From Sulfurimonas sp. (lineage in GTDB: Bacteria; Campylobacterota; Campylobacteria; Campylobacterales; Sulfurimonadaceae), in assembly GCA_026988315.1 (NCBI GenBank), contig JALSLJ010000035.1:1-61551 (forward strand): a stretch of 61,551 nt of DNA. The letters run 5' to 3'. A program made the translations under genes and the position numbers. The notes under the pieces were generated by a model. It was not told the DNA's origin, ran no database searches, and saw nothing but the letters and a program-made list of their open reading frames with translations. Below are positions 32,656 through 54,134 of this stretch, in pieces. How positions within the stretch are numbered: position 1 is the stretch's first letter; each line of letters begins with the position of its first letter.

Positions 32656-33249
32656 ATGGCTAGAGTAACAAAACAAGAGCGTAAAGATGGAATTATATCA
32701 GTAGCACTGAAACTTTTCTCTGAAAAAGGTTTTTACATTACAACTATACCTGATATCGCAGAAAAAGTTGGGATGAGTGTTGGAAATTTTTATAACTATT
32801 TTACATCAAAAGATATTTTAGCAAAAGAGCTTGTGGTATATATCTCTGAGTATATTGGAGCTAAAATAAAAAAAATTAATGAAAGTGATATTGCTACAGA
32901 AAAAAAAATATATGAAATTGTATCTATGTATTTCGATATGGCAGATGAAAAACCTGAGATGATAGAATATTTTTTAAGAGTGTATCTCTCAAATCGTGAA
33001 GTATTTAAAGAGGGCTGTGAGGGTATGATTTGTGTGAGTGCCTTTGTAACTGAGTTGATGATATTTTTTGATGAAGGCGTTGAATCTGGAGATTTGTATG
33101 ACCAAGATTTTTTTAGTGCTTTTGGACTTTTTATGGGATACTTAGGAGGTATGGTTTTTCTTTTTGGAGAAAAAATCTTACCAGACTCGCTATCAAGCTA
33201 TAAAGAGTCTATAGCACAAAATATTTATAATGCACTCAAAGCAAGATAA
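32656..33249 (+). CDS. TetR/AcrR-family regulator, hydrogenase-island paralogue 1
   Basis: A 197-residue TetR protein with the helix-turn-helix LFSEKGFYITTIPDIAEKVGMS, then VGNFYNYFTSKDILAKEL. It is clearly paralogous to the regulator at 55785: both share KGFY-TT, GMSVG-FYN and YFF/L-VYL-NRE blocks. The HupS-like gene begins inside its last 20 bases, so regulator and hydrogenase pair are one operon. It is a candidate to bind the AATGAAT/ATTCATT palindromes of the island. Confidence 0.88.
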   Translation: MARVTKQERKDGIISVALKLFSEKGFYITTIPDIAEKVGMSVGNFYNYFTSKDILAKELVVYISEYIGAKIKKINESDIATEKKIYEIVSMYFDMADEKPEMIEYFLRVYLSNREVFKEGCEGMICVSAFVTELMIFFDEGVESGDLYDQDFFSAFGLFMGYLGGMVFLFGEKILPDSLSSYKESIAQNIYNALKAR

Positions 33250-34135
33250 GAAACCAACACTTATCTGGTTTCAAGGTCTTACTTGTAATGGTAACACACA
33301 CTCTTTTTTTAATCTGCACAACTTAGAAAACCTACTTAATAAATTTGAAATTCTTTACCATCCATCTTTAGAGTCAACAAAAAATATAGACGAAATAACA
33401 GCTTGTATATTTACCTGTGATATATTTATCTTTGAGGGGACATATGACCCCCTCATGAAGCGAAATGATGTTTTAGTTTCTGAGATTTTAAATTATTACG
33501 CAAAAGATGCAAACTATATTATAGCTGCTGGAACTTGCGCAAGTTTTGGTGGAATGTTTAAGGCATCAGCACCAGAGAGAAATAGCGGATTAATATTTAA
33601 CGAAGCAGACCATGAGGGACCAATAATAAAGTATAAGCATAAAGTTATAAACATCTCTGGATGTCCAATCCACCCTGAATGGCTAGGATATACCTTAAAT
33701 ATGGTTCTCTCAAAAAAAGAGCTAGAAGTGGATAAGTTGCATCGACCAATAGAGCTCTTTAGTAACCTTTCTCATCATGGATGTACTAGAAACGAATATT
33801 TTGAATGGAAGGTTGATAGCGATAATTTTGGTGAAAAAGAGGGTTGTTTGTACTATAAACAAGGTTGTCGAGCTCCAATGACACATGCCTCATGCAACAA
33901 AATACTTTGGAACGAAGTAAGTTCTAAAACAAGAGTTGGAACTCCATGCTTTGGATGTACTGAAGCAGATTTCCCAAGACAAAGCCTTTACAGCACAAAA
34001 ACAAATATGTCTATACCTCAAGATATGCCTATTGGAGTTCCAAAGCGAAGCTATCTAACATTAGCAGGTATTGCTAAAACATTTAGTATAAAAAGATTAG
34101 AAGGGAAACTCATTGATTACAAAAAAACTCATTGA
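33230..34135 (+). CDS. Cytoplasmic group 2-type [NiFe]-hydrogenase small subunit
   Basis: A 301-residue small subunit without signal peptide, therefore cytoplasmic. It begins LIWFQGLTCNGNTHSFFN; the C-x-G-N-T motif is the hallmark of group 2 enzymes (cyanobacterial HupS, sensory HupU). Further cluster ligands are seen in AAGTCASFGG, ISGCPIHPEW, HHGCTRNEYFEW, YYKQGCRAP and GTPCFGCTEADFP. It could be an uptake enzyme of group 2d or a sensory HupU-type protein. Co-transcription with a TetR regulator and the form of its partner favour sensing, as inference. Confidence 0.85.
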   Translation: MHSKQDKKPTLIWFQGLTCNGNTHSFFNLHNLENLLNKFEILYHPSLESTKNIDEITACIFTCDIFIFEGTYDPLMKRNDVLVSEILNYYAKDANYIIAAGTCASFGGMFKASAPERNSGLIFNEADHEGPIIKYKHKVINISGCPIHPEWLGYTLNMVLSKKELEVDKLHRPIELFSNLSHHGCTRNEYFEWKVDSDNFGEKEGCLYYKQGCRAPMTHASCNKILWNEVSSKTRVGTPCFGCTEADFPRQSLYSTKTNMSIPQDMPIGVPKRSYLTLAGIAKTFSIKRLEGKLIDYKKTH

Positions 34136-35411
34136 TAAGATAGAGGGTGAGGCTTGTGTTTATTTTGATATTAAAGATAGAGTTGTTGATTTTGCAACGA
34201 TAGCATTTCCAAATTTTAGGGGAATACAAGAAATTCTTAAGGGAAAGAATGCCTTAGACGCTTTAGTTATTACACCTCGAGTGTGTGGCATTTGTGGGCA
34301 TGCACATTTAATGGCTACGGTTAGAGCTATAGAAGATGCATATAAAAATGGAGGCTATGAAATAGTTCTCAATCAAAAAATTCAAAAAATCCGAGAATTT
34401 ACATTAATTATGGAGACAATTCAGAACCATTTAAAATGGATATACCTAACAATTATGCCCGAGCTTGCTCAATTAAACAAATCAACTAAAATACTAACAC
34501 CATTAAAAAGTGCATTTGGATCTTCAATTGCTGCAAGAGCAATAGCTACATTTGCAGGTCAATGGCCACACTCATCATATATGCTCCCCGGAGGAATTAC
34601 TTGTGATCCAACAAATATTGATGCACTAAAAGCAAAAAGCTATGTAGATGAGCTAACATCTTTTTTTGAAAAGGAGTCATTAGGGATAGGGATAGAAGAG
34701 TTTTTAGCTTTTGAATCTTGCAAAGATTTTAAAAATATGGATAGTGATATCTCCTTTATAGAAGAGGAATTGATAAAAGCTGGTATGAATAAAAAAGGGT
34801 TTTCTCACGATCGCTTTATTGTCTTAGGCAATCATAGCTATACAAATCCATCTAAAATAAATCAAACAAGAATATACTGTGCTGATGCAATGTGTGTAGA
34901 AGATATCGATTCCTATTCTCCAAATGAAAAAACATATGCTAAGAATGCAGTATATAGTGGAAGTTATTACGAAGCAGGTTCACTAGCGAGACAGATGTCT
35001 TTAAATGTCCCTATAGTAAAAAATATGCATAGAAGGTATAAAGATAGTGCATATAGTAGGGTGATGGCTAGAATATTTGAACTTGCATATCTGCTTAAAG
35101 AATCTAATAGCATCTTAGATGATATAGATATTAGTGAAGCATCTTTTAACGCACCCCAGCACATCAATGCAATAACTGCAACAGGAATAGGTGTAGTAGA
35201 AGCACCAAGGGGACCATTAGTTCATAAAGTAAGCTTAGAAAAAGGTGTCATAAAAGAGTATAAAATAATAACTCCTACACAGTTTAATATTGGTAGTTCA
35301 ACAAAATCAGATCCAACACCTGCTCAAAAATCAATGATAGGGGTATCTAAGGAGGACGCCTTATTTATCTTTCGTACCTTCGATGTATGCTCAGTTTGTA
35401 CCACACATTAA
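34113..35411 (+). CDS. Cytoplasmic group 2-type [NiFe]-hydrogenase large subunit, no C-terminal extension
   Basis: A 432-residue large subunit. The first active-site motif is RVCGICGHAH near residue 56; the second is FDVCSVCTTH and is the very end of the protein. All four Ni/Fe Cys are present, but the usual Pro of DPC is Val, and no peptide follows the final His. Most uptake enzymes carry a tail there that a protease removes, while sensory HoxC/HupV-type subunits lack it. The start is a TTG at 34113 with AGAAGGG upstream, overlapping the small subunit gene. Confidence 0.87.
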   Translation: MITKKLIDKIEGEACVYFDIKDRVVDFATIAFPNFRGIQEILKGKNALDALVITPRVCGICGHAHLMATVRAIEDAYKNGGYEIVLNQKIQKIREFTLIMETIQNHLKWIYLTIMPELAQLNKSTKILTPLKSAFGSSIAARAIATFAGQWPHSSYMLPGGITCDPTNIDALKAKSYVDELTSFFEKESLGIGIEEFLAFESCKDFKNMDSDISFIEEELIKAGMNKKGFSHDRFIVLGNHSYTNPSKINQTRIYCADAMCVEDIDSYSPNEKTYAKNAVYSGSYYEAGSLARQMSLNVPIVKNMHRRYKDSAYSRVMARIFELAYLLKESNSILDDIDISEASFNAPQHINAITATGIGVVEAPRGPLVHKVSLEKGVIKEYKIITPTQFNIGSSTKSDPTPAQKSMIGVSKEDALFIFRTFDVCSVCTTH

Positions 35412-35543: not shown

Positions 35544-36776
35544 ATGGCAGATAGAATTGAAGGTGTAAAAAAACTTTTTACATCTAAAAGTGCACGCGTT
35601 GAAACAAATATGGGTGATGCTCATTACGAGAAGTTGTTTCAATCATGTCAAGCAAGAATAGAAGAGTTAAAAACACAGACACCGAGGGAGAATCGTTTAG
35701 ATATAGATAGTTTTTTGGATGACCAAGGTGTTAATCGTCGTGATTTTATGAAATGGGCAAGTGCTGTAACTGGTATGTTAATGTTGCCATCATCATTTAC
35801 TCCTCTTGTAGCAGATGCAGCTTTACTCATGAATAGAGCTCCTGTTATTTGGCTAGAGCTTTCTGATTGTGCAGGAAATACTGAGGCTATTCTTCGTTCA
35901 GACGGACCAAAAATTGATGAAATTCTTTTGGATATTATATCTTTAGAATTTAATGAAACAATTATGGCAGCATCTGGACACCAAGCTGAGAAACAATTAG
36001 AAGATGCTATACACACATTTAAAGGTAAATATTTACTTTTTGTTGAGGGTGCTATACCTATGGGTCTTGATGGTCAATATGGTACTATCGGTGCTCATGC
36101 AGAGACATTTTATGATCATCTTATGAGAATCTCTAAAGATGCGGCTGCTGTTGTTGCTGTTGGTTCTTGTGCGACTTTTGGTGGTGTTCCAGCCGCTTCT
36201 CCAAATCCGACTCAGGCAGTTGGTGTTATGGATGTACTTAAAGGTAAGCCACTTATTAATATCCCTGCTTGTCCTGCTAATCCTGCAAATATGGTTGGTG
36301 TAATTATTCACTATATCTTAACTGGTCAAGTTCCAGAGTTAGATTCACTACTTCGTCCTAAGTTTGCATTTGGATATAGAATTCACGATAATTGTGAGCG
36401 TCGTGCACATTTTGATGCTGGTGAGTTTGTTGAAGAGTGGGGAGATCATGGAGCAAAACATAATCATTGCCTCTATAAGGTTGGATGTAAAGGTCCTATG
36501 ACATTTAATAATTGTTCTATTATTAGATACAATGAAGGTGTTAACTGGCCTATCGGTGTTGGCCGTGGTTGTATAGGCTGTTCTGAGCCAGATTTCTGGG
36601 ATAAGTATGCGCATGAGCGTCCTATATCAAGCGTAAATATAAAAGCACCAACTGGCGGTGTTGAAAAAACTGTTGATGAGTTTGGTTTAGGACTCTTAAC
36701 AGCAGCGAGTATCGGTATCGGTATTCATGCAGTAGCAAGTGTAATAGCCGGTAAGACAGAGAATAAGGAGTATTAA
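35544..36776 (+). CDS. hydA: Periplasmic [NiFe]-hydrogenase small subunit HydA, variant proximal cluster
   Basis: A 410-residue group 1-type small subunit with a Tat motif (NRRDFMKWAS, Arg65-66) after an unusually long N-region and a C-terminal membrane helix. Distal and medial cluster ligands are intact (IHDNCERRAHF, YKVGCKGP, NNCS, GCIGCSEPDFW), as are GSCATFGG and IPACPANP. The proximal motif reads DCAGNTEA: Cys109 is kept but the second Cys is Asn112, where HydA-2 at 49907 has CTGC. A [3Fe-4S] or otherwise altered proximal cluster is therefore likely. It forms an operon with hydB and hydC. Confidence 0.92.
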   Translation: MADRIEGVKKLFTSKSARVETNMGDAHYEKLFQSCQARIEELKTQTPRENRLDIDSFLDDQGVNRRDFMKWASAVTGMLMLPSSFTPLVADAALLMNRAPVIWLELSDCAGNTEAILRSDGPKIDEILLDIISLEFNETIMAASGHQAEKQLEDAIHTFKGKYLLFVEGAIPMGLDGQYGTIGAHAETFYDHLMRISKDAAAVVAVGSCATFGGVPAASPNPTQAVGVMDVLKGKPLINIPACPANPANMVGVIIHYILTGQVPELDSLLRPKFAFGYRIHDNCERRAHFDAGEFVEEWGDHGAKHNHCLYKVGCKGPMTFNNCSIIRYNEGVNWPIGVGRGCIGCSEPDFWDKYAHERPISSVNIKAPTGGVEKTVDEFGLGLLTAASIGIGIHAVASVIAGKTENKEY

Positions 36777-36777
36777 G

Positions 36778-38559
36778 ATGGCAAAAAAACATATAATAGT
36801 AGATCCAATAACAAGAATTGAAGGTCACTTAAGAATAGAAGCGGTAATTGATGAGAATAATACAATTGTAGATGCGTATGCATCATCAACACTTTTTCGT
36901 GGTATAGAGACAATCCTTCAAGGGCGTGACCCTCGTGATGCTGGTCTTTTAGCTATGCGTATTTGTGGTGTTTGTACTGGTACACACTATCAGCGTTCAA
37001 TCGAAGCTGTTGAAGATGCATTTAATGTTACTATTCCAAAAAACGCTCGTTTAGTTCGTAACCTTATTCAGGGTGCATTATATCTGCACGATCATTTGGT
37101 TCACTTTTACCATCTTCATGCTCTTGATTTTGTTGATGTAGTATCAGCTTTATCAGCTGATCCTAAAAAGACATCCGATGAGGCTGTAAAATGGGCAAAA
37201 GTATCAGGTACTAACCCTTTCATAGAGGGAGCTGGTCAATTTAAAGAGATTCAAGATAGAGTTGCTAAATTTGTAAAACAAGGCCGTTTAGGAATTTTTG
37301 GAAATGGATATTGGGGTAACAAGCACTACAAACTAACTCCTGAACAAAACTTAATTGGTGTTGCACACTACTTAAAAGCTCTTGATATTCAAAGAGATAT
37401 GGCTAAGATGCAGGCTATCTTTGGTGGTAAAAATCCACATCCACAATCAATAGTAGTTGGTGGAGTAACTTGTGTTCAAGATATTCAAAATCCTGCTCGT
37501 ATTGCACTTTTTAAGTCACTTTTAAAAGATGCAAATAAGTTTATCAAACAAGCGTATCTTCCAGATGTTTATATGGCTGGAACTATGTATGCAGATGAAG
37601 CGACTGACTCTAATGCTACATTTACAAAACACACAACTGGAAAAGGTGTAGGTGGAACTGGTGGAGGTCTTCTTAACTTCTTGTCATATGGTGATTTTAG
37701 ACTAGATGATACTGGTTTTTATAAATCTGCACTTCTGTTCCCATCTGGTGTAGTAAAAAATGGAGATTTAACGAAGGTGTATCCATTTGATCCAGAGAAA
37801 GTTAAAGAGGATGTTACCCATGCTTGGTATGAAGGAACAGGTTCTCCTGAGCATCCATATGAGGGGACAACAAACCCTAAATATACTGGAATGGAGAAAA
37901 AAGCTGATGGTATGAGTTATCTTAAAACTGATGAAAAATACTCTTGGATAAAATCTCCAATCTATGATGATGAGAGAATGGAGGTTGGACCACTAGCTCG
38001 TATGGTTATTGGTGTTGCGTCTGGACATGAACTTATAACAAAATATGTAACAAACTTTTTAGAGCGTGCAAACCTTCCTGTAACTGTACTCTACAGTACT
38101 ATTGGTCGTACAGCAGCTCGTGCTATTGAGACTGAACTTATGGGTGATGAGATGATGAAATGGGTAGATGAACTAGCTGCAAATGCTGCAAGTGGTGATC
38201 TACATACATGGACTGATTTTGATTTTGATGTAGTGAGTCAAAATACTAAAGGTGCTGGTCTTGCAGAAGCTCCTCGTGGAGGTCTTGGTCACTGGGTGAA
38301 AATTGAAAATGGTAAAATCTCTAACTATCAAGCTGTCGTTCCATCAACATGGAATGCAGCTCCTAGAGACTATAAAGGTCGTTTAGGTGCTTATGAGGCT
38401 GCTCTAATTGGTACGAAAGTAGCTGACGCTGAACAGCCACTGGAAATCATAAGAACTATTCATAGTTTTGACCCTTGTATCGCATGTGCAGTGCATGTAG
38501 TAGATACTAAAGGTAAAGAGCTTGGTGTTTATAAGATAGATACTCAGTGTAGTATCTAA
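36778..38559 (+). CDS. hydB: Periplasmic [NiFe]-hydrogenase large subunit HydB (copy 1)
   Basis: A 593-residue group 1 large subunit. Active-site motifs are RICGVCTGTHY near residue 61 and DPCIACAVH near the end, followed by a 20-residue tail starting VVDTKGKELG that a HydD-type protease should remove. It oxidises H2 in the periplasm and is exported with HydA. It begins 1 base after hydA and is followed by hydC. Confidence 0.95.
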   Translation: MAKKHIIVDPITRIEGHLRIEAVIDENNTIVDAYASSTLFRGIETILQGRDPRDAGLLAMRICGVCTGTHYQRSIEAVEDAFNVTIPKNARLVRNLIQGALYLHDHLVHFYHLHALDFVDVVSALSADPKKTSDEAVKWAKVSGTNPFIEGAGQFKEIQDRVAKFVKQGRLGIFGNGYWGNKHYKLTPEQNLIGVAHYLKALDIQRDMAKMQAIFGGKNPHPQSIVVGGVTCVQDIQNPARIALFKSLLKDANKFIKQAYLPDVYMAGTMYADEATDSNATFTKHTTGKGVGGTGGGLLNFLSYGDFRLDDTGFYKSALLFPSGVVKNGDLTKVYPFDPEKVKEDVTHAWYEGTGSPEHPYEGTTNPKYTGMEKKADGMSYLKTDEKYSWIKSPIYDDERMEVGPLARMVIGVASGHELITKYVTNFLERANLPVTVLYSTIGRTAARAIETELMGDEMMKWVDELAANAASGDLHTWTDFDFDVVSQNTKGAGLAEAPRGGLGHWVKIENGKISNYQAVVPSTWNAAPRDYKGRLGAYEAALIGTKVADAEQPLEIIRTIHSFDPCIACAVHVVDTKGKELGVYKIDTQCSI

Positions 38560-38569
38560 GGAGTTTCGT

Positions 38570-39361
38570 ATGAATAATACTGATGTCGAATATGACGATA
38601 AACTAGGGAGCAAAAGAGTTAGAGTAAGACGCATGACATTTACAATGCGTCTTATTCACTGGGTAAATGTTGTTTCAATGATAGTTGCAATAGCTACAGG
38701 TTTATATATTGCTGAACCATATTATCAAACATTAATAGCTGACGATGCTGTTGATAAATATGTTATGGCATGGAACCGTTGGGGACACTTTATAGTTGCT
38801 ATTATTTTTGATGTTACTGCTATTATTGTTTCTTATCTGTTTTTCTTTTCTAGGTTTGAGAAGCATTATTTAAAAATAATACCAAATAAGAAAAATATAA
38901 TTGAGTTTTGGGAAGTGTTTTTAAATCTTATACTCTTAAATAGAAGAAAAAAGTTTGACTCATCTCACAACGATAGCTTTAATGCCATATACTTTATTGT
39001 ATTTCATATAATGCTAGCGTGGATGCTCTTTACTGGACTTCAGCTGTATGTACATGCTTTGGCTTCCGGAGATAGTTCTATCGGTGCTTGGTGGCCTTGG
39101 ATGTTGCACCTTGTAACAGATTGGACAATTCCATTTTCATCATGGTTAGTTGGTACAACAGCAACGGGTGGAAATATTATGGATGTAAGAATTGTACACC
39201 ATATGAGCATGTGGATAATAATTGTTTGGGTTTTATTTCATATTTACTATCAAATATGGAGAACAATTTTTTGGCAAGAAGGTGATATAGCTATAGTAGT
39301 TGGTGGTTCTAAATTCATGAAAGTTGGCAGCGATGGCAACAAAAAAGTAGAAGATAAATAA
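38570..39361 (+). CDS. hydC: Hydrogenase cytochrome b subunit HydC (copy 1)
   Basis: A 263-residue diheme cytochrome b with four main membrane helices and histidines in LIHWVNVVSM, RWGHFIVAI and VHHMSMWIIIVWVLFHIYYQ. It carries electrons from HydA to menaquinone. It differs from HydC-2 at 52847 in its longer N-terminus and loops, so the two hydrogenases are diverged paralogues, not recent copies. Confidence 0.93.
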   Translation: MNNTDVEYDDKLGSKRVRVRRMTFTMRLIHWVNVVSMIVAIATGLYIAEPYYQTLIADDAVDKYVMAWNRWGHFIVAIIFDVTAIIVSYLFFFSRFEKHYLKIIPNKKNIIEFWEVFLNLILLNRRKKFDSSHNDSFNAIYFIVFHIMLAWMLFTGLQLYVHALASGDSSIGAWWPWMLHLVTDWTIPFSSWLVGTTATGGNIMDVRIVHHMSMWIIIVWVLFHIYYQIWRTIFWQEGDIAIVVGGSKFMKVGSDGNKKVEDK

Positions 39362-39390
39362 CTTCAGTCTTCTAATTTACAAAAAATAAT

Positions 39391-39410
39391 AGGGAAGATT
39401 TTTCTTCCCT
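39391..39410. terminator. Hairpin after hydABC-1
   Basis: AGGGAAGA-TTTT-TCTTCCCT is a perfect 8-bp stem 30 bases after hydC. On the + strand no U-run follows; on the minus strand ATTATTTTTTG follows. It most likely ends the hydABC-1 transcript or insulates the next operon. Confidence 0.5.
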
Positions 39411-39506
39411 GTCTCAAATCACTTTCCATATATTCTTTTATCAATTATCATCACATTATATCATTTGCTATTTTAAGTTCTCCAGCTAAGTGTTTCAAGT
39501 TCGGAC

Positions 39507-39520
39507 AATGAATATTCATT
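39507..39520. promoter_or_regulatory. Palindromic operator before the soluble hydrogenase operon
   Basis: AATGAATATTCATT is a perfect 14-bp palindrome, identical to the one before nrfH (44788). It is followed by CACTATA, a stretch also found after the palindrome before hydABC-2. The first gene of the operon starts 110 bases downstream. Confidence 0.7.
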
Positions 39521-39629
39521 CACTATAGAATTTATTATTATATTAATATAAAATTATATTTTAAGGTTTAAGCTAATAGAATTAAATTACTTTTTAAATT
39601 AAGTAAATATTAATAATAAGGGGCGATTC

Positions 39630-39914
39630 ATGCTTAATAAAACCTGTATTCGGATGTATTGCGAATCTGAGGGTAGATGTCATGGAATTGTTTTAGTACA
39701 TTTTACAGAAGATCAAAAAAAAAGAATAATGACTCAAGTCAATGAGTTGTCACATAGACATAGAGTTTCACCTGATGTCGTTTCAAGAAAGATGTCTCAC
39801 TATGGTGAAGTGTTTATAGAATTTTATGATGAATATCATCATGAAGATGCTTGCTTTTTCGAAGATTTGGTTGATGCACTAGGTGCTAAACTATGTAACT
39901 GTGAGGAGATGTAA
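39630..39914 (+). CDS. Small Cys/His-rich protein heading the soluble hydrogenase operon
   Basis: A 94-residue protein beginning MLNKTCIRMYCESEGRCHG and ending CNCEEM, with six Cys and six His. The arrangement suggests metal binding, but no known motif fits. It shares the last base of its stop with the ATG of the hydrogenase small subunit, so translation is coupled. A maturation or metal-delivery role would fit the place, but this is a guess. Confidence 0.7.
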   Translation: MLNKTCIRMYCESEGRCHGIVLVHFTEDQKKRIMTQVNELSHRHRVSPDVVSRKMSHYGEVFIEFYDEYHHEDACFFEDLVDALGAKLCNCEEM

Positions 39915-40792
39915 TGGCAAAGATTATACCTAAGATATTTAGAATAAATACTGGAAGTTGTAATGGATGTGATGTAGAGTTCGTAGCCACTGCATTTGTA
40001 GATAAATTTCATATAACTAGCTTAAATGTGGAACTTGTTGATGATGTAAAAGATGCAAATCTTTTAGTTATTACAGGACCTTTAACGGCTAGAAGTGAAT
40101 CATTTTTAAAAAATGCGTTAACAAAACTACGAAAACCTTTTGTAGTTGTTGGAGTTGGAACCTGTTCTGTTAGTTGTGGAATATTTAGAGATTCATATGC
40201 GATTAATGGTCCCATTGATAAGTTTGTTGCAGTAGATGTAAATGTGGCAGGATGCCCACCTCGTCCAGAGTCAATTGCAGAGGGGATAGCAAAAGGGATA
40301 AAAGTTCTTGAACAAAAACTCAACGGTGAGGTTATACCTAAGAAAATAGATACAATTTTTAGTGATTTTAGTGCACCTGCTAGTTTTAGAGGAAGAATGG
40401 ACTTAAATGCAGATATGTGCACTGGATGCAGAACTTGCGAGACTGTGTGTCCATCAACGGCTATTAAAATATCTGAAGATGCAAATGGGTTTATTCATAA
40501 GATTTGGCATAACAGCTGTTGTTATTGTGGAAATTGTGCGTATTTTTGTCCAACAGGTGCTATCTTTTCAACAAATAGCTTTGATACAGTTAAATTGCAA
40601 AATGAAAAATACTCAGATGTAAATGTATCGCACATCTTTTATGATGAATGTACTTGTTGTGGAGAAAAATATATGCCACCATCTAGGGGACTTCTTAGTA
40701 AATCATACATTAAAGAGGATAGAAATAAGTTAAATGCAGCAATTTGCTCGAAATGTAGAAAAGAAGAAAATTTTAAAAGGATGTATGGATGA
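39914..40792 (+). CDS. Complex-I-type hydrogenase small subunit fused to a 2[4Fe-4S] ferredoxin
   Basis: A 292-residue fusion. The N-terminal half is NuoB/EchC/HycG-like with the N2-type cluster ligands (SCNGCDVEF, GTCSVSCG, VAGCPPRPE). A ferredoxin domain with two [4Fe-4S] motifs follows (CTGCRTCETVCP and CCYCGNCAYFCP), like NuoI/EchF. The C-terminus has another Cys set (CTCCGE, CSKC) that may bind zinc or a cluster. It relays electrons from the [NiFe] site to partner proteins. Separate genes are usual for these parts. Confidence 0.88.
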   Translation: MAKIIPKIFRINTGSCNGCDVEFVATAFVDKFHITSLNVELVDDVKDANLLVITGPLTARSESFLKNALTKLRKPFVVVGVGTCSVSCGIFRDSYAINGPIDKFVAVDVNVAGCPPRPESIAEGIAKGIKVLEQKLNGEVIPKKIDTIFSDFSAPASFRGRMDLNADMCTGCRTCETVCPSTAIKISEDANGFIHKIWHNSCCYCGNCAYFCPTGAIFSTNSFDTVKLQNEKYSDVNVSHIFYDECTCCGEKYMPPSRGLLSKSYIKEDRNKLNAAICSKCRKEENFKRMYG

Positions 40793-41292
40793 AATTGGAA
40801 GAGTTTAACAATGCAGTAAAAAGTAAAATATCTTGTGGATATGAGTTTAAAGAAGATAAAGATAGCTATTCTAATCCATCGGCCTGGATTATATTAAAAG
40901 ATAAAAGAGATTCTGAAGTAGTAGCAAAGGCAATCAAGGCATACAAAGGAAGATGCGTAGTTGCAACTGCATATAAAAATGATGGTGAAGATGTTCATAC
41001 AGTAATTTATCATTTTGATATTGCAGGGACAATAATAAATATGCAGCTACAAACAGATGATGCAACTATTCATGCTATCACCCATATCCTTCCGAGCGCT
41101 AACTGGGCTGAGAGAGAAATCCGTGAGATGTATGGAGTAGAGCCAATTGGGCATCCAAATAAAGATAGGCTGTTCTTAGATTACTCAATTGCTAAGGGTG
41201 TGTTAAATGAGTATATTTCACTCTCAAAGATGCAACTTGGGGTGAGTGATACGGATGTACTTTGGAACAATGTTAACAAGGAGGCAAATTAA
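40789..41292 (+). CDS. NuoC-like subunit of the soluble hydrogenase
   Basis: A 167-residue protein of the complex I 30-kDa (NuoC/EchD) family, ending in the family block NWAEREIREMYGVEPIGHPN near residues 103-122. It is a structural partner of the large subunit. It overlaps its neighbours on both sides by 4 and 1 bases. Confidence 0.88.
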   Translation: MKLEEFNNAVKSKISCGYEFKEDKDSYSNPSAWIILKDKRDSEVVAKAIKAYKGRCVVATAYKNDGEDVHTVIYHFDIAGTIINMQLQTDDATIHAITHILPSANWAEREIREMYGVEPIGHPNKDRLFLDYSIAKGVLNEYISLSKMQLGVSDTDVLWNNVNKEAN

Positions 41293-42389
41293 TGACTCAA
41301 ACTCAAAAAATCACTATTGGACCATTTAATCCTGAACTTGAAGAGTCTGTATATTTTAAGCTAGAAGCAGATGAAAATAGAGTTGTGACACATGTTGAAA
41401 TAATAAATGGTTTTATCCACAGGGGTATGGAATCTCTTGTTACAAAGAAAAACTTTATGCAAAATCTTATTTTAACAGAGCGTGTCTGCTCCCTTTGTTC
41501 TAATAATCATCCATTTACATATGCCTTAGCAGTGGAAAAAATCGCTGGCATAAAAGTTCCACTTCGTGCAGAGGCGCTTCGTGTAATAGCTGATGAAGTA
41601 AAAAGAGTTGCTTCTGATTTATTCAATCTATCAATGTTAACACATTTAGCTCATCATCACGAACTGATGCGTGATACAATGAATACAAGAGAACATATGC
41701 AAGACCTCAAAGAGATTATTTGGGGAAATCGGATGGATATGAGTGCTAACCAACTCACAGGTACAAAATATGACCTAGATGAGAAGAAGATAGAACTCAT
41801 CATCGATACTCTTGATAGAGTTGAACCAAAGCTAAGAGATTTGCAGGAGAGATATGAAAATGATGAAATCTTCCGTGAAAAAACTGTAGGTGTTGGTGTA
41901 CTTCCATATGAAGATGCAATAGAGATAGGTGTTACAGGTCCTGTTGCAAGAGGTAGTGGCATCAATAATGATGTGCGTGTAATGGCACCATACTCACTAT
42001 ATGCTTACAGAAAAGAGCTTCAACCAAAGGTCACACTAAGAGAAGAGGGTGATGTGCACGCTCGTGCTATGGCTAGATTCGGTGATATTTTAGAGGCTGT
42101 TAGGATTATCCGTGATGTCGTTGCAGATATGCCAGAGGGTGATACATATGTTGAAAAAAGACCCCATATCCCAGCAGGTGAAGCAGTTGTTAGAACAGAA
42201 GCACCTCGTGGTGAACTTATCTATTATTTAAAAACGGATGGCTCACAAAAACCTGTAAGAATGCGTTGGAAAGTACCAACATTTACAAATTGGGAAGCAC
42301 TTAAAGTGATGATTTTAGGTGATAAAGTGGACAATGTAACAATGATTTTAAATAGTATAGACCCTTGCATATCTTGTACTGAGAGATAG
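41292..42389 (+). CDS. Complex-I-type [NiFe]-hydrogenase large subunit
   Basis: A 365-residue NuoD/EchE/HycE-like subunit. It keeps both Ni-binding motifs, RVCSLCSNNHP near residue 63 and DPCISCTER at the very C-terminus, so it is a hydrogenase and not a complex I subunit, which lacks these Cys. There is no cleavable tail. It would reduce protons or oxidise H2 in the cytoplasm. No membrane-subunit gene lies anywhere in the operon. Confidence 0.9.
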   Translation: MTQTQKITIGPFNPELEESVYFKLEADENRVVTHVEIINGFIHRGMESLVTKKNFMQNLILTERVCSLCSNNHPFTYALAVEKIAGIKVPLRAEALRVIADEVKRVASDLFNLSMLTHLAHHHELMRDTMNTREHMQDLKEIIWGNRMDMSANQLTGTKYDLDEKKIELIIDTLDRVEPKLRDLQERYENDEIFREKTVGVGVLPYEDAIEIGVTGPVARGSGINNDVRVMAPYSLYAYRKELQPKVTLREEGDVHARAMARFGDILEAVRIIRDVVADMPEGDTYVEKRPHIPAGEAVVRTEAPRGELIYYLKTDGSQKPVRMRWKVPTFTNWEALKVMILGDKVDNVTMILNSIDPCISCTER

Positions 42390-42398
42390 GAGATAAAA

Positions 42399-42905
42399 GT
42401 GAAAAATAATAGATTTATATATGCCGATCCAGATAAATGTATAGGGTGTATTAACTGTGAACTTGCATGTAGTGCTAGTCATATGGGAATAGATATAGAC
42501 AGTGTATATGAGATGGCACTTCAAGGTGAAGAGATAGCACCTTCAAGAAACAAGGTGATTAAAGTAGATGGTAAAACTGCTCCACTACAGTGTATGCAGT
42601 GTCCAGATGCTCCATGTTTAGAGGGATGTCCTGTTGATATCATCAAGTATGAAGATGATTTTGTAAAATATTATGAGAGTGATTGTATAGGGTGTAAAAG
42701 TTGTGATATGGTTTGTCCATATGGTGCAGTAGTTATGGCAACGAATACGAAACCAGATGCACCAGTCAGTCAAATGGTGGCTCTTACTTGTGATTTATGT
42801 GGTGGCGAAAATGGCAAACAAGCATGTATCAATATATGTCCTACAGATGCAATAGCGCTTATAGATTATGAGCAGTTCTTTGAGATTTCTTTTAAAAGAG
42901 CTTAG
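42399..42905 (+). CDS. CooF/HycB-like four-cluster ferredoxin
   Basis: A 168-residue protein with four [4Fe-4S] groups: CIGCINCELAC, CMQCPDAPCLEGCP, CIGCKSCDMVCP, and CDLCGG with CINICP. It belongs to the CooF/HycB/HydN group that connects a hydrogenase to an oxidoreductase. Here the oxidoreductase candidate is the GltD-like flavoprotein two genes downstream. The start is a GTG at 42399 with AGGAGA upstream. Confidence 0.9.
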   Translation: MKNNRFIYADPDKCIGCINCELACSASHMGIDIDSVYEMALQGEEIAPSRNKVIKVDGKTAPLQCMQCPDAPCLEGCPVDIIKYEDDFVKYYESDCIGCKSCDMVCPYGAVVMATNTKPDAPVSQMVALTCDLCGGENGKQACINICPTDAIALIDYEQFFEISFKRA

Positions 42906-42910
42906 ATAAT

Positions 42911-43246
42911 ATGCATGAATATAGCATTGTTCAATCTATGTTGGATTTATGTGAAAAACACTCAAATGGTAAAGAGATTCAAAAAGTTGTAGTAAAGATT
43001 GGAAAAATGAGTGGAATTGAGCCCCATTTTCTTAAATCAAGTTTCGATCTCTTTAAAGAAGACACTCTTTGTCATGATGCAATTATGGAAATGCAACTTA
43101 TAGATATAACATTGTTATGTGTTGATTGCAACAAAGAAGCTTTAGTTGATAGTTTTAACTTTTATTGTCCACACTGCAAAGGTGGAAATACAAAGGTGCT
43201 AACGGGGCAAGAGATGCATATAGATTATATAGAATTGAAGGAGTAG
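42911..43246 (+). CDS. hypA: Hydrogenase nickel incorporation protein HypA
   Basis: A 111-residue HypA. The N-terminal MHEYSI supplies the Ni-binding His2, and two CxxC pairs (CVDC and CPHC) form the zinc site. It delivers nickel to hydrogenase large subunits and, in related bacteria, to other nickel enzymes. It is the only hypA in the window and sits in the soluble hydrogenase operon. Confidence 0.95.
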   Translation: MHEYSIVQSMLDLCEKHSNGKEIQKVVVKIGKMSGIEPHFLKSSFDLFKEDTLCHDAIMEMQLIDITLLCVDCNKEALVDSFNFYCPHCKGGNTKVLTGQEMHIDYIELKE

Positions 43247-43248
43247 AG

Positions 43249-44679
43249 ATGCAGAGAAAAAAACAATACCTAAAGATAAAAAAAGAGACACCAAGAAAAA
43301 GAGAAGCAGATGAGAGAGTTATAGATTTTCATCCCACTTACCATCTTTTTAGTAAAGAAGAAGCAGATACACAATCGCTGAGATGTATTAAGTGCCCTGT
43401 TGATTTACTTAAAGATATGAGTGGAGATTTTAGCTTTTGTAGAACTGGATGTCCATTGGAAAATAAAATTCCACTTTGGATTGAGGCAACAAAAAATGGT
43501 GATATTAAAAAAGCCTTTGAGTTAAGTAATGAGGTCTCGCCTTTTCCTGAGATACTTGGTATGGTTTGTCCACACGATGTTTTATGTCAGGGAGGCTGCA
43601 CCATCTCTAAAACAGAGAGTGGAAGTGTCAGTATTGGTGCGATTGAAGTTTATCTAAATGAGCAAGCATTTAAGATGGGTTTAAAGCCTGATTATGGACA
43701 AAATAAAGATAGAACAGGGAAAAAAGTAGCTGTTATAGGAAGTGGACCTGCTGGCATGAGCTGTGCAACATTTTTACTTCGTGCTGGTGTTGAGGTAGAT
43801 ATGTTTGAAAAATCAGATAGACCAGGTGGACTATTAACCTATGGCATCCCAAATTTTAAGATAAAAAAAGATGTGATTTTGAGAAGATTTGGTTGGATGC
43901 AAGAAGCAGGGATGAATTTACATCTTAATAGCGATATAAAGGACTCACAACAATTAAAAAACATGCTAGATGAATATGATGCAATTTTTGTAGGTCTAGG
44001 AGCACCAAGCAGTAGAGGTGCTAGAATGAAAAATGAAGATTCCCACGGGGTGTATCATGTTATGGATATATTAAAGCATGCTCAAAAAAGGGTATTTGAA
44101 GATTTCTATGAGTCAATCCTTGAGGATAAACATGTAGTAGTTATTGGTGGTGGTGATTCTGCTATGGATGCTGTAAGAACTTCAGTGCGTATGAATGCAA
44201 AATCTGTTCGTTGTGCATATAGAAGAGATCAAGCAAATATGCCAGGAAGTCAAAAAGAGGTTATAAATGCAAAAGAGGAAGGTGTTCTCTTTGAGTTTTA
44301 TACTGCTCCAAAAGAGGTTGTAGTAGATAAGGGTAGGCATGTGAAAGGTATGATATGTCAAAAAACTCACTTAGGCGAACCAGACGCAAGTGGCAGAAGA
44401 AAACTTGAAGTGATAGAGGGAAGTGATTTTGAATTAGAGTGTGATGTTATTATCTTAGCACTAGGTTTTGATAATGTAGAGTTCCCTTGGTATGATGATG
44501 CTCAAATAAACACTGGTAGATGGGGTGATATTCTTGTTAATGAAGAAAAGAGAACTTCTAATAAACGCGTTTATGCTGGTGGAGATGCTGTAAGAGGTGC
44601 TGATTTAGCAGTAACTGCAGCAGCAGATGGAAGATTGGCAGCCTTGTCAATGATGCAAGATTTCGGTCTAACTCTATAG
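43249..44679 (+). CDS. GltD/NfnB-type NAD(P)H oxidoreductase, likely partner of the soluble hydrogenase
   Basis: About 476 residues. An N-terminal Cys-rich domain (CIKCP, CRTGCP, CPHDVLCQGGC) binds [4Fe-4S] clusters. An FAD site (VIGSGPAGMSCATFLLRAG) and an NADPH site (VIGGGDSAMDAVRTSVR with CAYRR) follow, as in the small subunit of glutamate synthase, NfnB and AegA. No glutamate synthase large subunit is nearby. As last gene of the hydrogenase operon it probably couples H2 to NADP(H). The ATG at 43249 follows hypA by 2 bases, with AAGGAG upstream. Confidence 0.85.
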   Translation: MQRKKQYLKIKKETPRKREADERVIDFHPTYHLFSKEEADTQSLRCIKCPVDLLKDMSGDFSFCRTGCPLENKIPLWIEATKNGDIKKAFELSNEVSPFPEILGMVCPHDVLCQGGCTISKTESGSVSIGAIEVYLNEQAFKMGLKPDYGQNKDRTGKKVAVIGSGPAGMSCATFLLRAGVEVDMFEKSDRPGGLLTYGIPNFKIKKDVILRRFGWMQEAGMNLHLNSDIKDSQQLKNMLDEYDAIFVGLGAPSSRGARMKNEDSHGVYHVMDILKHAQKRVFEDFYESILEDKHVVVIGGGDSAMDAVRTSVRMNAKSVRCAYRRDQANMPGSQKEVINAKEEGVLFEFYTAPKEVVVDKGRHVKGMICQKTHLGEPDASGRRKLEVIEGSDFELECDVIILALGFDNVEFPWYDDAQINTGRWGDILVNEEKRTSNKRVYAGGDAVRGADLAVTAAADGRLAALSMMQDFGLTL

Positions 44680-49906: not shown

Positions 49907-51079
49907 ATGATGAAGCCGCATACTGAGGTATCGTTTGATAAACTTTATAAAGATTTTGAAAATCGAATTAAAGATTTAGAAAAATTACCGCGTGTCAAAG
50001 AGGAAGGTTCTGTCGAGCAAATGCTAACAGAAAAAGGGTTTTCAAGAAGAGATTTTATGAAGTGGGCAAGTGCAATTACAGCAATGCTAGCCCTTCCGTC
50101 AAGTTTTACACCACTTATGGCAGATGCTATTAAAGTTGTTGATAGACTTCCGATTATTTGGTTGCATATGGCGGAGTGTACAGGTTGCAGTGAAGCACTT
50201 CTTCGTTCTGCTCACCCAACTATAGACAGTCTTATATTTGACTATATTTCATTAGAATATCATGAAACTTTAATGGCTGCAGCTGGTTGGCAGGCTGAAG
50301 AAAATATAGAACATGCAATGGATAAATATAAGGGTCAGTATATCTTAATGGTTGAGGGTGGCATCCCAACTGGCTTAGAGGGTTCTTATCTTACTATTGG
50401 TGGACATGGGAAAAAAGGTATAGATATAGCCAAGGAAGCTAGTGATAATGCAGCGGCTATTTTTGCTATTGGTACATGTTCTGCATATGGTGGAGTGCAA
50501 GCTGCTATTCCAAATCCTACAGGTGCTGTTGCTCTAAGTGATGTGACAAATAAAACAGTTATTAATGTTCCAGGATGTCCTCCTAGTGAGAAAAATATTG
50601 TTGGAACTTTAATGTACTATCTCCTGTATGGTTCTTTACCTGCACTTGATGTATATAACAGACCAAAATGGGCTTATAGATTGAGAATCCATGATTTATG
50701 CGAGAGAAGAGGTCGCTTCGATGCTGGTGAATTTGTAGAGAGTTTTGGTGATGAGGGTGCAAAAGATGGATATTGCCTATATAAAGTAGGTTGTAAAGGT
50801 CCTTATACCTTCAATAACTGCTCTAAAAATAAATTTAATGAAGATACTTCATGGCCGGTTCAAGTTGGTTTTGGGTGTATTGGTTGTAGTGAACCAGATT
50901 TCTGGGATACTATGGGAACAGTTAATGAACCACTCGCAAACAAGCTCTACAATACTACATTTAGTGGGCTAGGCGCTGATGCAACAGCAGATAAGATAGG
51001 TGTAGCTATATTAGCAGCAACCGCTATTGGTGTAACAGCTCACGCAGTTTTAGCATTAGTTAAGCCACCAAAAGAATAA
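49907..51079 (+). CDS. hydA: Periplasmic [NiFe]-hydrogenase small subunit HydA (canonical, copy 2)
   Basis: A 390-residue group 1 small subunit with a Tat motif (SRRDFMKWAS, Arg47-48), again after a long N-region, and a C-terminal membrane helix. All cluster ligands are present, including ECTGCSEALLRS (Cys91 and Cys94) for the proximal cluster, NVPGCPPSEK and GCIGCSEPDFW. It transfers electrons from HydB to HydC. It is the first gene of hydABCDE, as in Wolinella and Helicobacter. Confidence 0.96.
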   Translation: MMKPHTEVSFDKLYKDFENRIKDLEKLPRVKEEGSVEQMLTEKGFSRRDFMKWASAITAMLALPSSFTPLMADAIKVVDRLPIIWLHMAECTGCSEALLRSAHPTIDSLIFDYISLEYHETLMAAAGWQAEENIEHAMDKYKGQYILMVEGGIPTGLEGSYLTIGGHGKKGIDIAKEASDNAAAIFAIGTCSAYGGVQAAIPNPTGAVALSDVTNKTVINVPGCPPSEKNIVGTLMYYLLYGSLPALDVYNRPKWAYRLRIHDLCERRGRFDAGEFVESFGDEGAKDGYCLYKVGCKGPYTFNNCSKNKFNEDTSWPVQVGFGCIGCSEPDFWDTMGTVNEPLANKLYNTTFSGLGADATADKIGVAILAATAIGVTAHAVLALVKPPKE

Positions 51080-51097
51080 GAGTAGAGGAGATAAGAT

Positions 51098-52837
51098 ATG
51101 TCAAAAAGAGTAATAGTTGACCCAATAACTAGAATAGAGGGACACTTAAGAGCAGAAGTTGTGGTTGGAGATGATGGTATAGTTGAAGATGCCTTTGTTT
51201 CTTCAACGCTATGGCGTGGTTTAGAAGTGATTGCTAAAGATAGAGATCCAAGAAATGTTGCAATTTTAATGCAAAGAATATGTGGTGTTTGTACTTATTC
51301 TCACTACTTAAAAAGTACTATGGCAGTTGAGGACGCATTAGGGATTAAAATTCCATTAAATGCAGAACTTGTGCGAACACTTATGAATGTAGCACTATTT
51401 ATTCATGACCATGTAGTTCATTTTTATCATCTTCATGGTGTTGATTGGGTTGATATTACAAGTGCACTAAAAGCTGATCCTGCAAAGGCGTCAAAGTTAG
51501 CATTTAAGTATAGTGACTCTCCAGTAGCAACAGGGGAGGCTGATCTTAAAAAGACACAAGAGACTATTGAGAAGTTTGCTAAAAGCCCACAAGGGATGGG
51601 ACCATTTGCTAATGCATATTGGGGTCATGGAACTTACAGACTAACACCTGAGCAAAATTTAATAGCACTTTCTCACTATTTAAAAGCCTTAGAGATTCAA
51701 AGAATAGCGGCGAAGATGATGGCTATTTTTGGTGGTAAAAATCCACATCCACAATCTTTAGTTATTGGTGGTGTAAGCTGTGTTATGGATATACTTGATC
51801 CAACTAGAATGGCAGAGTATATGGAAAACTTCAAAAAACTTGCAGATTTTGTTGATAATGCTTATTATCCAGATATTAAGATGGCAGCAGAGATGTACAG
51901 AGATGAACCATCTGTTGTGAAGCCAATAGGTGTTAAAAATTTTATGGGTGCACCTGAACTAATGATAGGGAGAGGCGAGTATCTGTTTGATGCAAAAGGG
52001 TATATTTTAGATGCTGATTTATCTAAAGTCTTTGATATAAATGAAGACTTAATCACAGAAGAAGCAACACATGCATGGTATGCAGATGATGAAGCGCAAC
52101 ACCCATATGATGGAACAACTGTACCAAACTACACAGGTTTTGTAAAAGGTGAAAGTGTTGGACCTCAAGGCAAAATGGTGCATTCTGAAAATATTGACCC
52201 TAAAGGGAAATATAGTTGGATAAAAGCTCCACGATATGAAGATAAGCCGATGGAAGTAGGTCCTTTAGCTTCTATACTTGTAAACTATGCGAACGGAAAT
52301 GAAAAAGTGATAGCTGCGGTTGATAGTTTCTTAGAAGAGACAGATTTACCTCTTGAAGCACTCTTTACTACATTGGGTCGTACAGCGGCTCGTGCTGTTC
52401 AAGCAAAATTAATAGCTAAGCATGGTATGGAAGCATTTTATAATCTTATTGAAAACCTTAAGGTTGATGAAGAAACATGTGCTCCGTATGTGATTGATAC
52501 AAACAAAGAGTACAAAGGTCGTGGAATCGGTGAAGCGCCTCGTGGTATGTTAATCCACTGGATTCGCATAAAAAATGGTGTTTGTGAAAATTATCAAGCT
52601 ACTGTACCATCAACATGGAACGCATCGCCTATAGATGCTAATGGTGTAAAAGGTCCCTATGAAGCTGATTTAGTTGGTCTTAAAATTAAAGATTTATCAA
52701 AGCCTTTAGAAGTTATTAGGGTTATACACTCTTATGACCCTTGTATTGCTTGTGCTGTTCATGTTATGGACACTAAGGGTAACAAGCTTGGTGAATATAA
52801 GGTTGACCCACTCTATGGTGGCGTTTGTAACGCATAA
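51098..52837 (+). CDS. hydB: Periplasmic [NiFe]-hydrogenase large subunit HydB (copy 2)
   Basis: A 579-residue large subunit with RICGVCTYSHY near residue 64 and DPCIACAVH near the C-terminus, followed by a tail beginning VMDTKGNKLG for proteolytic removal. It oxidises H2 and co-folds with HydA before Tat export. It is clearly homologous to copy 1 but diverged through the middle region, which suggests an old duplication or separate acquisition. Confidence 0.96.
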   Translation: MSKRVIVDPITRIEGHLRAEVVVGDDGIVEDAFVSSTLWRGLEVIAKDRDPRNVAILMQRICGVCTYSHYLKSTMAVEDALGIKIPLNAELVRTLMNVALFIHDHVVHFYHLHGVDWVDITSALKADPAKASKLAFKYSDSPVATGEADLKKTQETIEKFAKSPQGMGPFANAYWGHGTYRLTPEQNLIALSHYLKALEIQRIAAKMMAIFGGKNPHPQSLVIGGVSCVMDILDPTRMAEYMENFKKLADFVDNAYYPDIKMAAEMYRDEPSVVKPIGVKNFMGAPELMIGRGEYLFDAKGYILDADLSKVFDINEDLITEEATHAWYADDEAQHPYDGTTVPNYTGFVKGESVGPQGKMVHSENIDPKGKYSWIKAPRYEDKPMEVGPLASILVNYANGNEKVIAAVDSFLEETDLPLEALFTTLGRTAARAVQAKLIAKHGMEAFYNLIENLKVDEETCAPYVIDTNKEYKGRGIGEAPRGMLIHWIRIKNGVCENYQATVPSTWNASPIDANGVKGPYEADLVGLKIKDLSKPLEVIRVIHSYDPCIACAVHVMDTKGNKLGEYKVDPLYGGVCNA

Positions 52838-52846
52838 GGAGCTATA

Positions 52847-53551
52847 ATGCAAACTGTTCAAAATAAAGATGCCTCTCACGAGGAGGTTCATATAGAGCAA
52901 GAGTTAGAGTTTAGTACATTTTACAGGTTACATCATTGGGTAAGGGTACTTAGTATTATAGTTTTAACAGCGACAGGATTTTATTTAGCTATTCCTGTTA
53001 TTGCACCTGCTCAAAATCCTGAGCCTACAAACTTTATGTATGCACTTTTTAGATCTTGGCATCTCATATTTGGTTTTGTGATGATCTCTATGTTTATAGG
53101 TAAAACATACTATTTCTTATTTGTTAAAAGTAATAGAGCCGAGGTAAAATCTATAAAAGACATTTTTCGTTTGGAGAATTGGGCAAAGCAGATAGGATAC
53201 TATTTTCTTGTAACAAAGCATCCACAGTTAACGGGTGCTTATAATGTTGTACAGTTTATAGCCTATGTTGCTTTTTACTTTATATCATTGGGTCTTATAG
53301 TTACAGGCTTAATCCTTTATGTTCATGTATATCATGAGGGGATGGGTGGTGTACTTTATGATAGCATGAGGTACTTAGAAGTTATGTTAGGTGGCTTAGC
53401 CTTTGTAAGAGAGTTACATCATCTTCTTATGTGGGGAACTATTCTTTTTGTTGTGGTTCATGTGTATATGGCAATCTTTAATGCTGTGTATGGCAAAGAG
53501 GGAAGCATAGATTCAATTATTAGTGGATATAAATGGCATAGAAAGCATTAG
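52847..53551 (+). CDS. hydC: Hydrogenase cytochrome b subunit HydC (copy 2)
   Basis: A 234-residue diheme cytochrome b with four membrane helices and heme-ligand histidines in LHHWVRVLSI, RSWHLIFGFVM and ELHHLLMWGTILFVVVHVYM. It passes electrons from HydA to menaquinone. It is closer in size to the Wolinella HydC than copy 1 is. Confidence 0.95.
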   Translation: MQTVQNKDASHEEVHIEQELEFSTFYRLHHWVRVLSIIVLTATGFYLAIPVIAPAQNPEPTNFMYALFRSWHLIFGFVMISMFIGKTYYFLFVKSNRAEVKSIKDIFRLENWAKQIGYYFLVTKHPQLTGAYNVVQFIAYVAFYFISLGLIVTGLILYVHVYHEGMGGVLYDSMRYLEVMLGGLAFVRELHHLLMWGTILFVVVHVYMAIFNAVYGKEGSIDSIISGYKWHRKH

Positions 53552-53573
53552 CAGATAGAAAAAGGAAATTATT

Positions 53574-54134
53574 TTGAAAATATTAATATTAGGCATTGGT
53601 AATATCCTTTTTGGAGATGAGGGAGTAGGTCCTCATCTTGCAAATCTTATCGAGAGAAAATACGAATTTACTTCAGATAAACATAGTGTTGAAATCATAG
53701 ACGGTGGAACACTAGCACACAGACTTATCCCAATAATTACCGAATATGATAGAGTAGTGCTTATAGATTGTGTAAAAGTTGATGATGGAAAAATTGGGGA
53801 TGTGTACTCTTTTGAGTTTAGTGATATGCCAGAACATATAAAATGGAATGGCAGTGCACATGAGGTTGAGATGCTGCAAACTCTTCAAATGATAGAGATG
53901 ATAGGAGACTTACCACCTGTAAAGATAGTAGGCGTAATCCCTTATGTGATTGGTGAAAATAGTACATTTTCTATGACACAAGAGGTCGTTAATGCAAGTT
54001 TAACAATGGAGAAAGTAGTTATAGACTATCTGAAATCCCTAGATATAGATGTAGAAATAAAAAAAGATTTAAAAATTACAGATGTGACAAATGATACATA
54101 CACCAAGGGGATAGAATATGATATTGGAGTTTAG
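53574..54134 (+). CDS. hydD: Hydrogenase maturation protease HydD
   Basis: A 186-residue endopeptidase of the HybD/HyaD type. The three nickel-sensing ligands are present: Glu16 in FGDEGVG, Asp65 in VVLIDCV and His96 in GSAHEVEM. It removes the HydB C-terminal tail after Ni insertion. The start is a TTG at 53574 with AAAGGA upstream. It overlaps hydE by 17 bases. Confidence 0.93.
   Translation: MKILILGIGNILFGDEGVGPHLANLIERKYEFTSDKHSVEIIDGGTLAHRLIPIITEYDRVVLIDCVKVDDGKIGDVYSFEFSDMPEHIKWNGSAHEVEMLQTLQMIEMIGDLPPVKIVGVIPYVIGENSTFSMTQEVVNASLTMEKVVIDYLKSLDIDVEIKKDLKITDVTNDTYTKGIEYDIGV

Follow-up and report, generated by a model that had tools for sequence, protein, structure and literature searches.

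We analyzed an operon of seven genes (39630-44679, plus strand) in a 61,551-nucleotide stretch of Sulfurimonas sp. DNA (contig JALSLJ010000035.1 of assembly GCA_026988315.1), hereafter called the window. The operon product is probably a soluble, non-bifurcating H2:NADP+ oxidoreductase, built from a CooLXUH hydrogenase that would lack its former CooM/CooK membrane arm. This assignment draws on gene content, motifs, phylogeny, the loss of a docking segment and a constant linkage to a GltD-like flavoprotein, all of them features seen in the compared sequences. Group 4 hydrogenases are relatives of complex I and are regarded as ion pumps. The clade described here appears to have shed both the pump and the surface on which it docks, on one occasion or more and possibly on two or three, yet it retains a redox core with a GltD-type module. 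Such a clade is a natural experiment on how the redox and pumping modules of the superfamily separate.

Operon organization and hydrogenase class

All seven genes lie on the plus strand. S94, a Cys/His-rich small protein of 94 aa (39630..39914), comes first and is followed by a CooL-CooX fusion (39914..40792; PF01058, 2e-21, plus Fer4), in which a NuoB-like small subunit with the proximal [4Fe-4S] is joined to a two-[4Fe-4S] ferredoxin domain and a C-terminal Cys-rich ribbon. Next come the NuoC-like CooU of 167 aa (40789..41292; PF00329, 3.5e-17; syntenic in relatives) and the hydrogenase large subunit CooH of 365 aa (41292..42389), identified by its Ni-site Cys, its tree position and its PDB match. 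The last three genes encode a CooF/HydN-like polyferredoxin of 168 aa (42399..42905), whose 16 Cys are enough for four [4Fe-4S], the nickel chaperone HypA (42911..43246; PF01155, 1.6e-28) and the GltD-like flavoprotein of 476 aa (43249..44679), with two [4Fe-4S], FAD and NADPH-type domains. Neighboring genes overlap or are separated by no more than 10 nt, and the flanking gaps measure about 269 nt upstream (39362..39629) and 164 nt downstream. The start of the GltD-like gene appears best placed at ATG 43249, which has AAGGAG just 5', in preference to the TTG at 43165 of the mechanical open reading frame (ORF). A promoter and terminator scan did not outperform shuffled sequence, and promoter-like matches in the upstream region did not exceed the shuffled frequency.

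The Pfam and NCBIfam searches back NuoB plus ferredoxin, NuoC, the NuoD/[NiFe] large subunit, polyferredoxin, HypA and GltD; every gene named in the original prediction is present as described, including the large subunit with all four Ni-site Cys. A second HypA gene of the genome is found on contig C100. The same gene order recurs at more than 30 loci, in many independent genomes of which some are single-contig, and is therefore neither chance nor an assembly gap; such conservation in relatives had been proposed as a check.

CooH carries the L1 motif ERVCSLCSNNH, and its L2 motif DPCISCTER forms the extreme C-terminus, with no cleavable extension, as in CooH proteins. The Ni-site Cys of both CxxC motifs are invariant in the 12 sequences compared. 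MbhL was the best PDB match (6cfw, 9e-61); among solved structures, MBH, complex I and FHL came closest. In the CooF family, 16 Cys columns are conserved. By its motifs and its nesting among CooH proteins, not by the HydDB classifier, the enzyme is classed as a [NiFe] group 4c CooH-type hydrogenase, which agrees with the complex-I-type enzyme first proposed and narrows it to the Coo/group 4 type. Its CooL, X, U and H core is present in order, with L and X fused, and neither the operon nor any orphan gene in the genome encodes the pump subunits CooM and CooK. CooS was sought at the Campylobacterota loci, not genome-wide, and none of those examined gave a match. A group 3b/3d NAD(P)-coupled [NiFe] hydrogenase was rejected, as the group 3-type NCBIfam models, at 23-47 bits, came nowhere near their cut-offs.

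Missing membrane arm and docking segment

No EchA/B, CooM/K or HycC/D gene occurs within the operon. In the genome, which is 99.85% complete, the only PF00146 genes outside the operon are NuoH (contig C79) and the EchB of a separate Ech-type cluster (contig C86). This cluster has its own EchB, EchC, EchD, EchE and EchF. Orphan pump subunits were thus ruled out, since each candidate is part of either complex I or the C86 cluster. The claim that the operon lacks ion-pumping membrane subunits is supported, as is a likely cytoplasmic product. The checks proposed with the original prediction mostly favored it: EchB-like genes do exist elsewhere in the genome, but each comes with a small and a large subunit of its own, and the CooL of the operon has lost its docking segment.

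Each of the 11 pump-linked operons encodes a CooL with the segment RYDxERLG..GSPKHAD, single conservative changes allowed, and a CooX that starts with the amphipathic stretch FLKIAIRNLLKGPxTDPYPFG or similar. In the membrane-less forms, the GSPKH part of the CooL segment and the whole N-terminal helix of CooX are gone. Among the 72 CooL columns invariant in the 11 pump-linked operons, 11 are lost in the pump-less ones, ten of them within residues 26-51. The losses elsewhere amount to 1 of 23 columns in CooU, 3 of 143 in CooH and 0 of 42 in CooF, and the clustering over CooL plus CooX has p=0.0016. The CooL segment is retained in MbhJ (6cfw), HycG (7z0s) and MbsJ (6u8y), as well as in the NuoB and EchC of the window genome itself. 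Judging from complex I and MBH structures, this segment would face the membrane subunit. As the docking segments are lost and the catalytic residues intact, the arm was probably lost for good, rather than being borrowed from elsewhere.

Distribution and phylogeny

Relatives were obtained from a search returning 26 related loci and from screening 397 Campylobacterota genomes. For CooH linked to GltD beyond the Campylobacterota, those 26 loci were the only ones inspected. The operon type was found in 24 of the 397 genomes. Every Campylobacterota CooH locus with its downstream region covered has CooF, HypA and a GltD gene behind CooH.

The loci fall into three states. In Deltaproteobacteria and Carboxydothermus, CooMKLXUH is accompanied by CooF and HypA, and GltD is lacking. 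Nautiliaceae have cooM-K-L-X-U-H-F-hypA-gltD, followed by fumarate reductase-type frd genes (coo-gltD leads into frd at loci L050-L055). The third state lacks M and K and reads L-X-U-H-F-hypA-gltD; it occurs in the window clade, in Sulfurospirillum (several single-contig genomes) and in one Nautiliaceae genome (L055). The window clade comprises Sulfurimonas-, Sulfurovum-, Arcobacter- and Hydrogenimonas-type genomes, mostly metagenome-assembled and one single-contig, in which CooL and CooX are fused. At another locus (L047), the same frd genes stand upstream of a membrane-less operon.

In the CooH tree, the GltD-bearing Campylobacterota clade is nested within pump-linked CooH, together with the Carboxydothermus and deltaproteobacterial proteins. 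The GltD tree groups L055 with the pump-linked Nautiliaceae (96/91), and the membrane-less label needs three state changes on it. A six-protein tree agrees on L055 with lower support (92), and the CooH tree alone places it with the window clade, with weak support and on a long branch. L055 retains the Nautiliaceae frd genes downstream, which, together with its place in the GltD tree, indicates a separate loss of the arm; its partly retained CooL segment (RFDLQKLG) fits a younger loss. If the arm was only ever lost, these data point to two to three losses. The approximately unbiased (AU) test does not reject a single loss for all membrane-less forms (p=0.43).

GltD-like flavoprotein and glutamate synthase

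The coo-linked GltD-like proteins form one clade in the tree, apart from E. coli GltD, AegA and YgfT and from the window genome's own GltD. The clade has an insertion of about 10 residues between the Cys ligands of the Fe-S domain (RCIKCPVDLLKDMSGDFSFCRTGC vs RCLSCGNPYCEWKC). The closest solved structures are GltD (1e-100) and then the DPD/NfnL types (about 1e-75; NfnL, 4e-75), and the TIGR01318 score of 479.5 bits falls just below the cut-off of 482.95. The NAD(P) domain motif GGGDSAMD...YRRD is the same as in the NADPH enzyme E. coli GltD. At the position aligned with R201 of P. furiosus NfnB, all 33 family members have Lys, as do GltD and AegA; in NfnB, R201 shields the FAD N5 in bifurcation (PMC10482914).

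In the window genome, gltB on contig C86 is directly followed by its own gltD. Given this dedicated pair, the operon protein was rejected as the glutamate synthase (GOGAT) subunit here, where GOGAT does not need it; service to glutamate synthase had been named as what would refute the prediction. Six further genomes (G105, G125, G356, G123, G206 and G209) have a second GltD within a few kilobases of gltB. Coo-less Nautiliaceae (G086, G300 and G382) and Sulfurovum-type genomes (G204, G221, G264, G285 and others) gave one match each, with E of about 1e-95 to 1e-111; with that query, the measured GltB of G028, G225 and G004 reached about 1e-101 to 1e-106. By match strength only, these single matches were assigned to GltB; gltB without gltD thus seems to be usual in such genomes, and GltB there seems to manage alone.

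A second GltD-like domain was seen in the nuo operon of the window genome. A 677-aa protein (G000:C79:33975-36008, L039) follows nuoD and a 73-aa ORF, at the expected place of NuoF, and similar ORFs occur in G125, G105, G225 and G356. It is possibly a second case of GltD as the electron-input module of a complex-I-type enzyme.

Proposed function and alternative explanations

In the proposed enzyme, electrons would pass from H2 to the Ni-Fe site of CooH, then to the proximal cluster in CooL, on to the clusters in CooX and from there to the four in CooF. From CooF, they would reach the two clusters of the GltD-like subunit, its FAD and finally NADP+, and HypA would load the nickel. The standard potentials are -414 mV for H2 and -320 mV for NADP+, and the reaction yields about -18 kJ/mol at these potentials. 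Because the transfer is downhill, neither an ion pump nor bifurcation would be needed. The enzyme would probably supply H2-fed NADPH for biosynthesis, for example for the reductive tricarboxylic acid (rTCA) cycle, and the separate Ech cluster would handle ferredoxin. We infer the membership of CooF and GltD in the complex, the direction of the reaction, the NADP specificity and the physiology. A GltD-type NAD(P)H module as electron partner, as the original prediction had it, is probable, and the fusion of CooF-like and GltD-like domains in E. coli AegA counts for the partnership. If true, this would give H2-oxidising Campylobacterota a direct route from H2 to NADPH, and the complex I lineage would gain a soluble enzyme that can be put to the test.

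Several points weigh against this proposal. The literature gave no biochemistry for any family member, the GltD-like protein could act on free ferredoxin rather than on the hydrogenase, and the preference for NADP over NAD is read from the motif alone. In S. multivorans, echE transcripts were negligible and the authors raised non-functionality (PMC5357620), and S. cavolei makes the Ech-like proteins only at a low level, with five of six subunits seen (Kruse 2018, PMC6242987). In addition, gltB is present in six Nautiliaceae and in G225, a single-contig genome of the window clade, with the coo-linked protein as the sole GltD of that type found (G225 also has the nuo-type GltD). A GOGAT role of the coo-linked protein is possible in these seven genomes.

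Four other explanations were weighed against the non-bifurcating H2:NADP+ oxidoreductase. The FAD of the GltD-like protein might split H2 electrons between NADP+ and ferredoxin, either CooF or free, in a bifurcating or confurcating soluble hydrogenase. GltD and NfnB have a common fold and cofactors (the NfnL match above), the rTCA cycle requires reduced ferredoxin and CooF is a possible low-potential branch; however, the NfnB R201 position is Lys throughout, the nearest solved relative is GltD rather than NfnB, and the operon has no NfnA, HydB or NuoF-like second flavin subunit, for which a genome-wide search was not made. We therefore consider bifurcation, the alternative offered in the original prediction, unlikely, and it is still somewhat less likely that a group 4 [NiFe] enzyme would in this way provide both rTCA reductants without an ion gradient. 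Similarly improbable is that the GltD-like protein mainly serves an H2- or NADPH-driven GOGAT and is linked to the hydrogenase incidentally. The gltB-bearing genomes with no other such GltD, the N. profundicola annotation, which names the protein so, and the GltD-linked [FeFe] A2 hydrogenases described in HydDB speak for it, whereas the gltD directly behind gltB in the window genome, the second GltD near gltB in the six genomes listed, the Coo-less genomes whose GltB seems to manage without GltD, the clade-specific insertion and the constant coo linkage speak against it.

The operon could also be a relict of CO metabolism, rarely used and with little present function, as the negligible echE transcript and the patchy distribution would suggest. 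We judge this very improbable, given that catalytic residues, CooF Cys and gene order are intact at 30+ loci and that the operon is kept in several families. Docking of the soluble CooLXUH on the C86 Ech pump, by which the enzyme would remain energy-converting, is scarcely likely: C86 does offer EchB and an antiporter-like protein, but its own EchC, D, E and F are present, and the window proteins have lost the CooL docking segment and the CooX N-terminal helix.

Comparison with known systems

The Coo hydrogenase of Nautilia ('Hyd-3', cooMKLXUHF-hypA-gltD) shares the subunits of the window operon and their order, down to the GltD-like gene, and Nautiliaceae GltD-like proteins are 62-67% identical to that of the window. 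Unlike the window operon, it has CooM, CooK, the docking segment and separate CooL and CooX, frd genes follow it and no S94 was seen. Its role was called enigmatic (Campbell 2009, PMC2628731). In Nautilia PV-1, an NADPH-binding subunit is apparently expressed along with the Coo hydrogenase, for which a role in making NADPH was proposed from proteomics (PMC10092268).

The 'Ech-like' EchEDFC of S. multivorans (SMUL_1307-1310) is likewise CooH-like without membrane subunits, whose absence Kruse 2017 called remarkable; the words 'glutamate' and 'NADPH' do not occur in the text of that paper (PMC5357620). Sulfurospirillum loci share the GltD-like gene with the window, but differ in a CooH identity of about 55%, mostly unfused CooL and CooX and the lack of S94. 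The CO-induced hydrogenase of Carboxydothermus (CooMKLXUH-hypA-cooF-cooS; C. islandicus, L034) has the same LXUH core with 53% CooH identity, a CooH that also ends in DPCISCTER, and HypA and CooF, whereas its pump arm and CO dehydrogenase are present and GltD is not. In E. coli AegA/YgfT, a HydN-like ferredoxin is fused to a GltD-like domain; the window CooF is 33% identical to the N-terminal domain of AegA, and the GltD-like protein shows 43% identity. AegA/YgfT are single proteins with no hydrogenase and no 10-residue insertion, and their function is unresolved (PMC8097209). The [FeFe] group A2 hydrogenases of HydDB also have a GltD-type gene downstream, with an unrelated [FeFe] catalytic subunit.

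The novelty of the original prediction was overstated, as both the missing membrane subunits (PMC5357620) and an NADPH role (PMC10092268) had been published. As far as the literature covered shows, what is new is the missing arm and the NADPH link in one conserved family, the erased docking surface and the signature of the GltD clade.

S94 and neighboring genes

S94 in this operon was found only in the window clade, where it precedes most operons. It occurs at 7 loci with 68-77% identity to the window protein, and C6, C11, C17, H18, C89 and C91 are invariant; it was also matched in L021 and L049. No Pfam or NCBIfam family, PDB sequence match or fold match was found for it (E<=0.001; model pLDDT 72). 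S94 belongs, as a diverged member, to a wider family of small Campylobacterota proteins present in 70 of the 397 genomes. Genes of this family (G000:C83:1279-1539; L090-L096) often adjoin ftsY-radA, where the paralogs gave no functional lead, and one genome has a family gene among apparent nitrogen-fixation genes.

The C86 Ech-type cluster (G000:C86:23309-28478, L038) is interrupted between EchD and EchE by a gene of 593 aa resembling Na/Pi cotransporters and an ORF of 72 aa. On the same contig (G000:C86:37550-39998, L038), a 588-aa NuoL-type antiporter gene has an unusual neighbor: it directly adjoins the large-subunit gene of another [NiFe] hydrogenase (DPCLACAVHV). The window holds four [NiFe] hydrogenases in total: the Coo enzyme, two HydABC-type and one HupSL-like. 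The two HydABC-type membrane hydrogenase operons (35544-39361 and 49907-54134) flank the Coo operon and nrfHA. At 32656-35411, a TetR regulator precedes the small subunit of a hydrogenase and a diverged large one, in an order similar to the TetR-hupSL arrangement described in S. multivorans.

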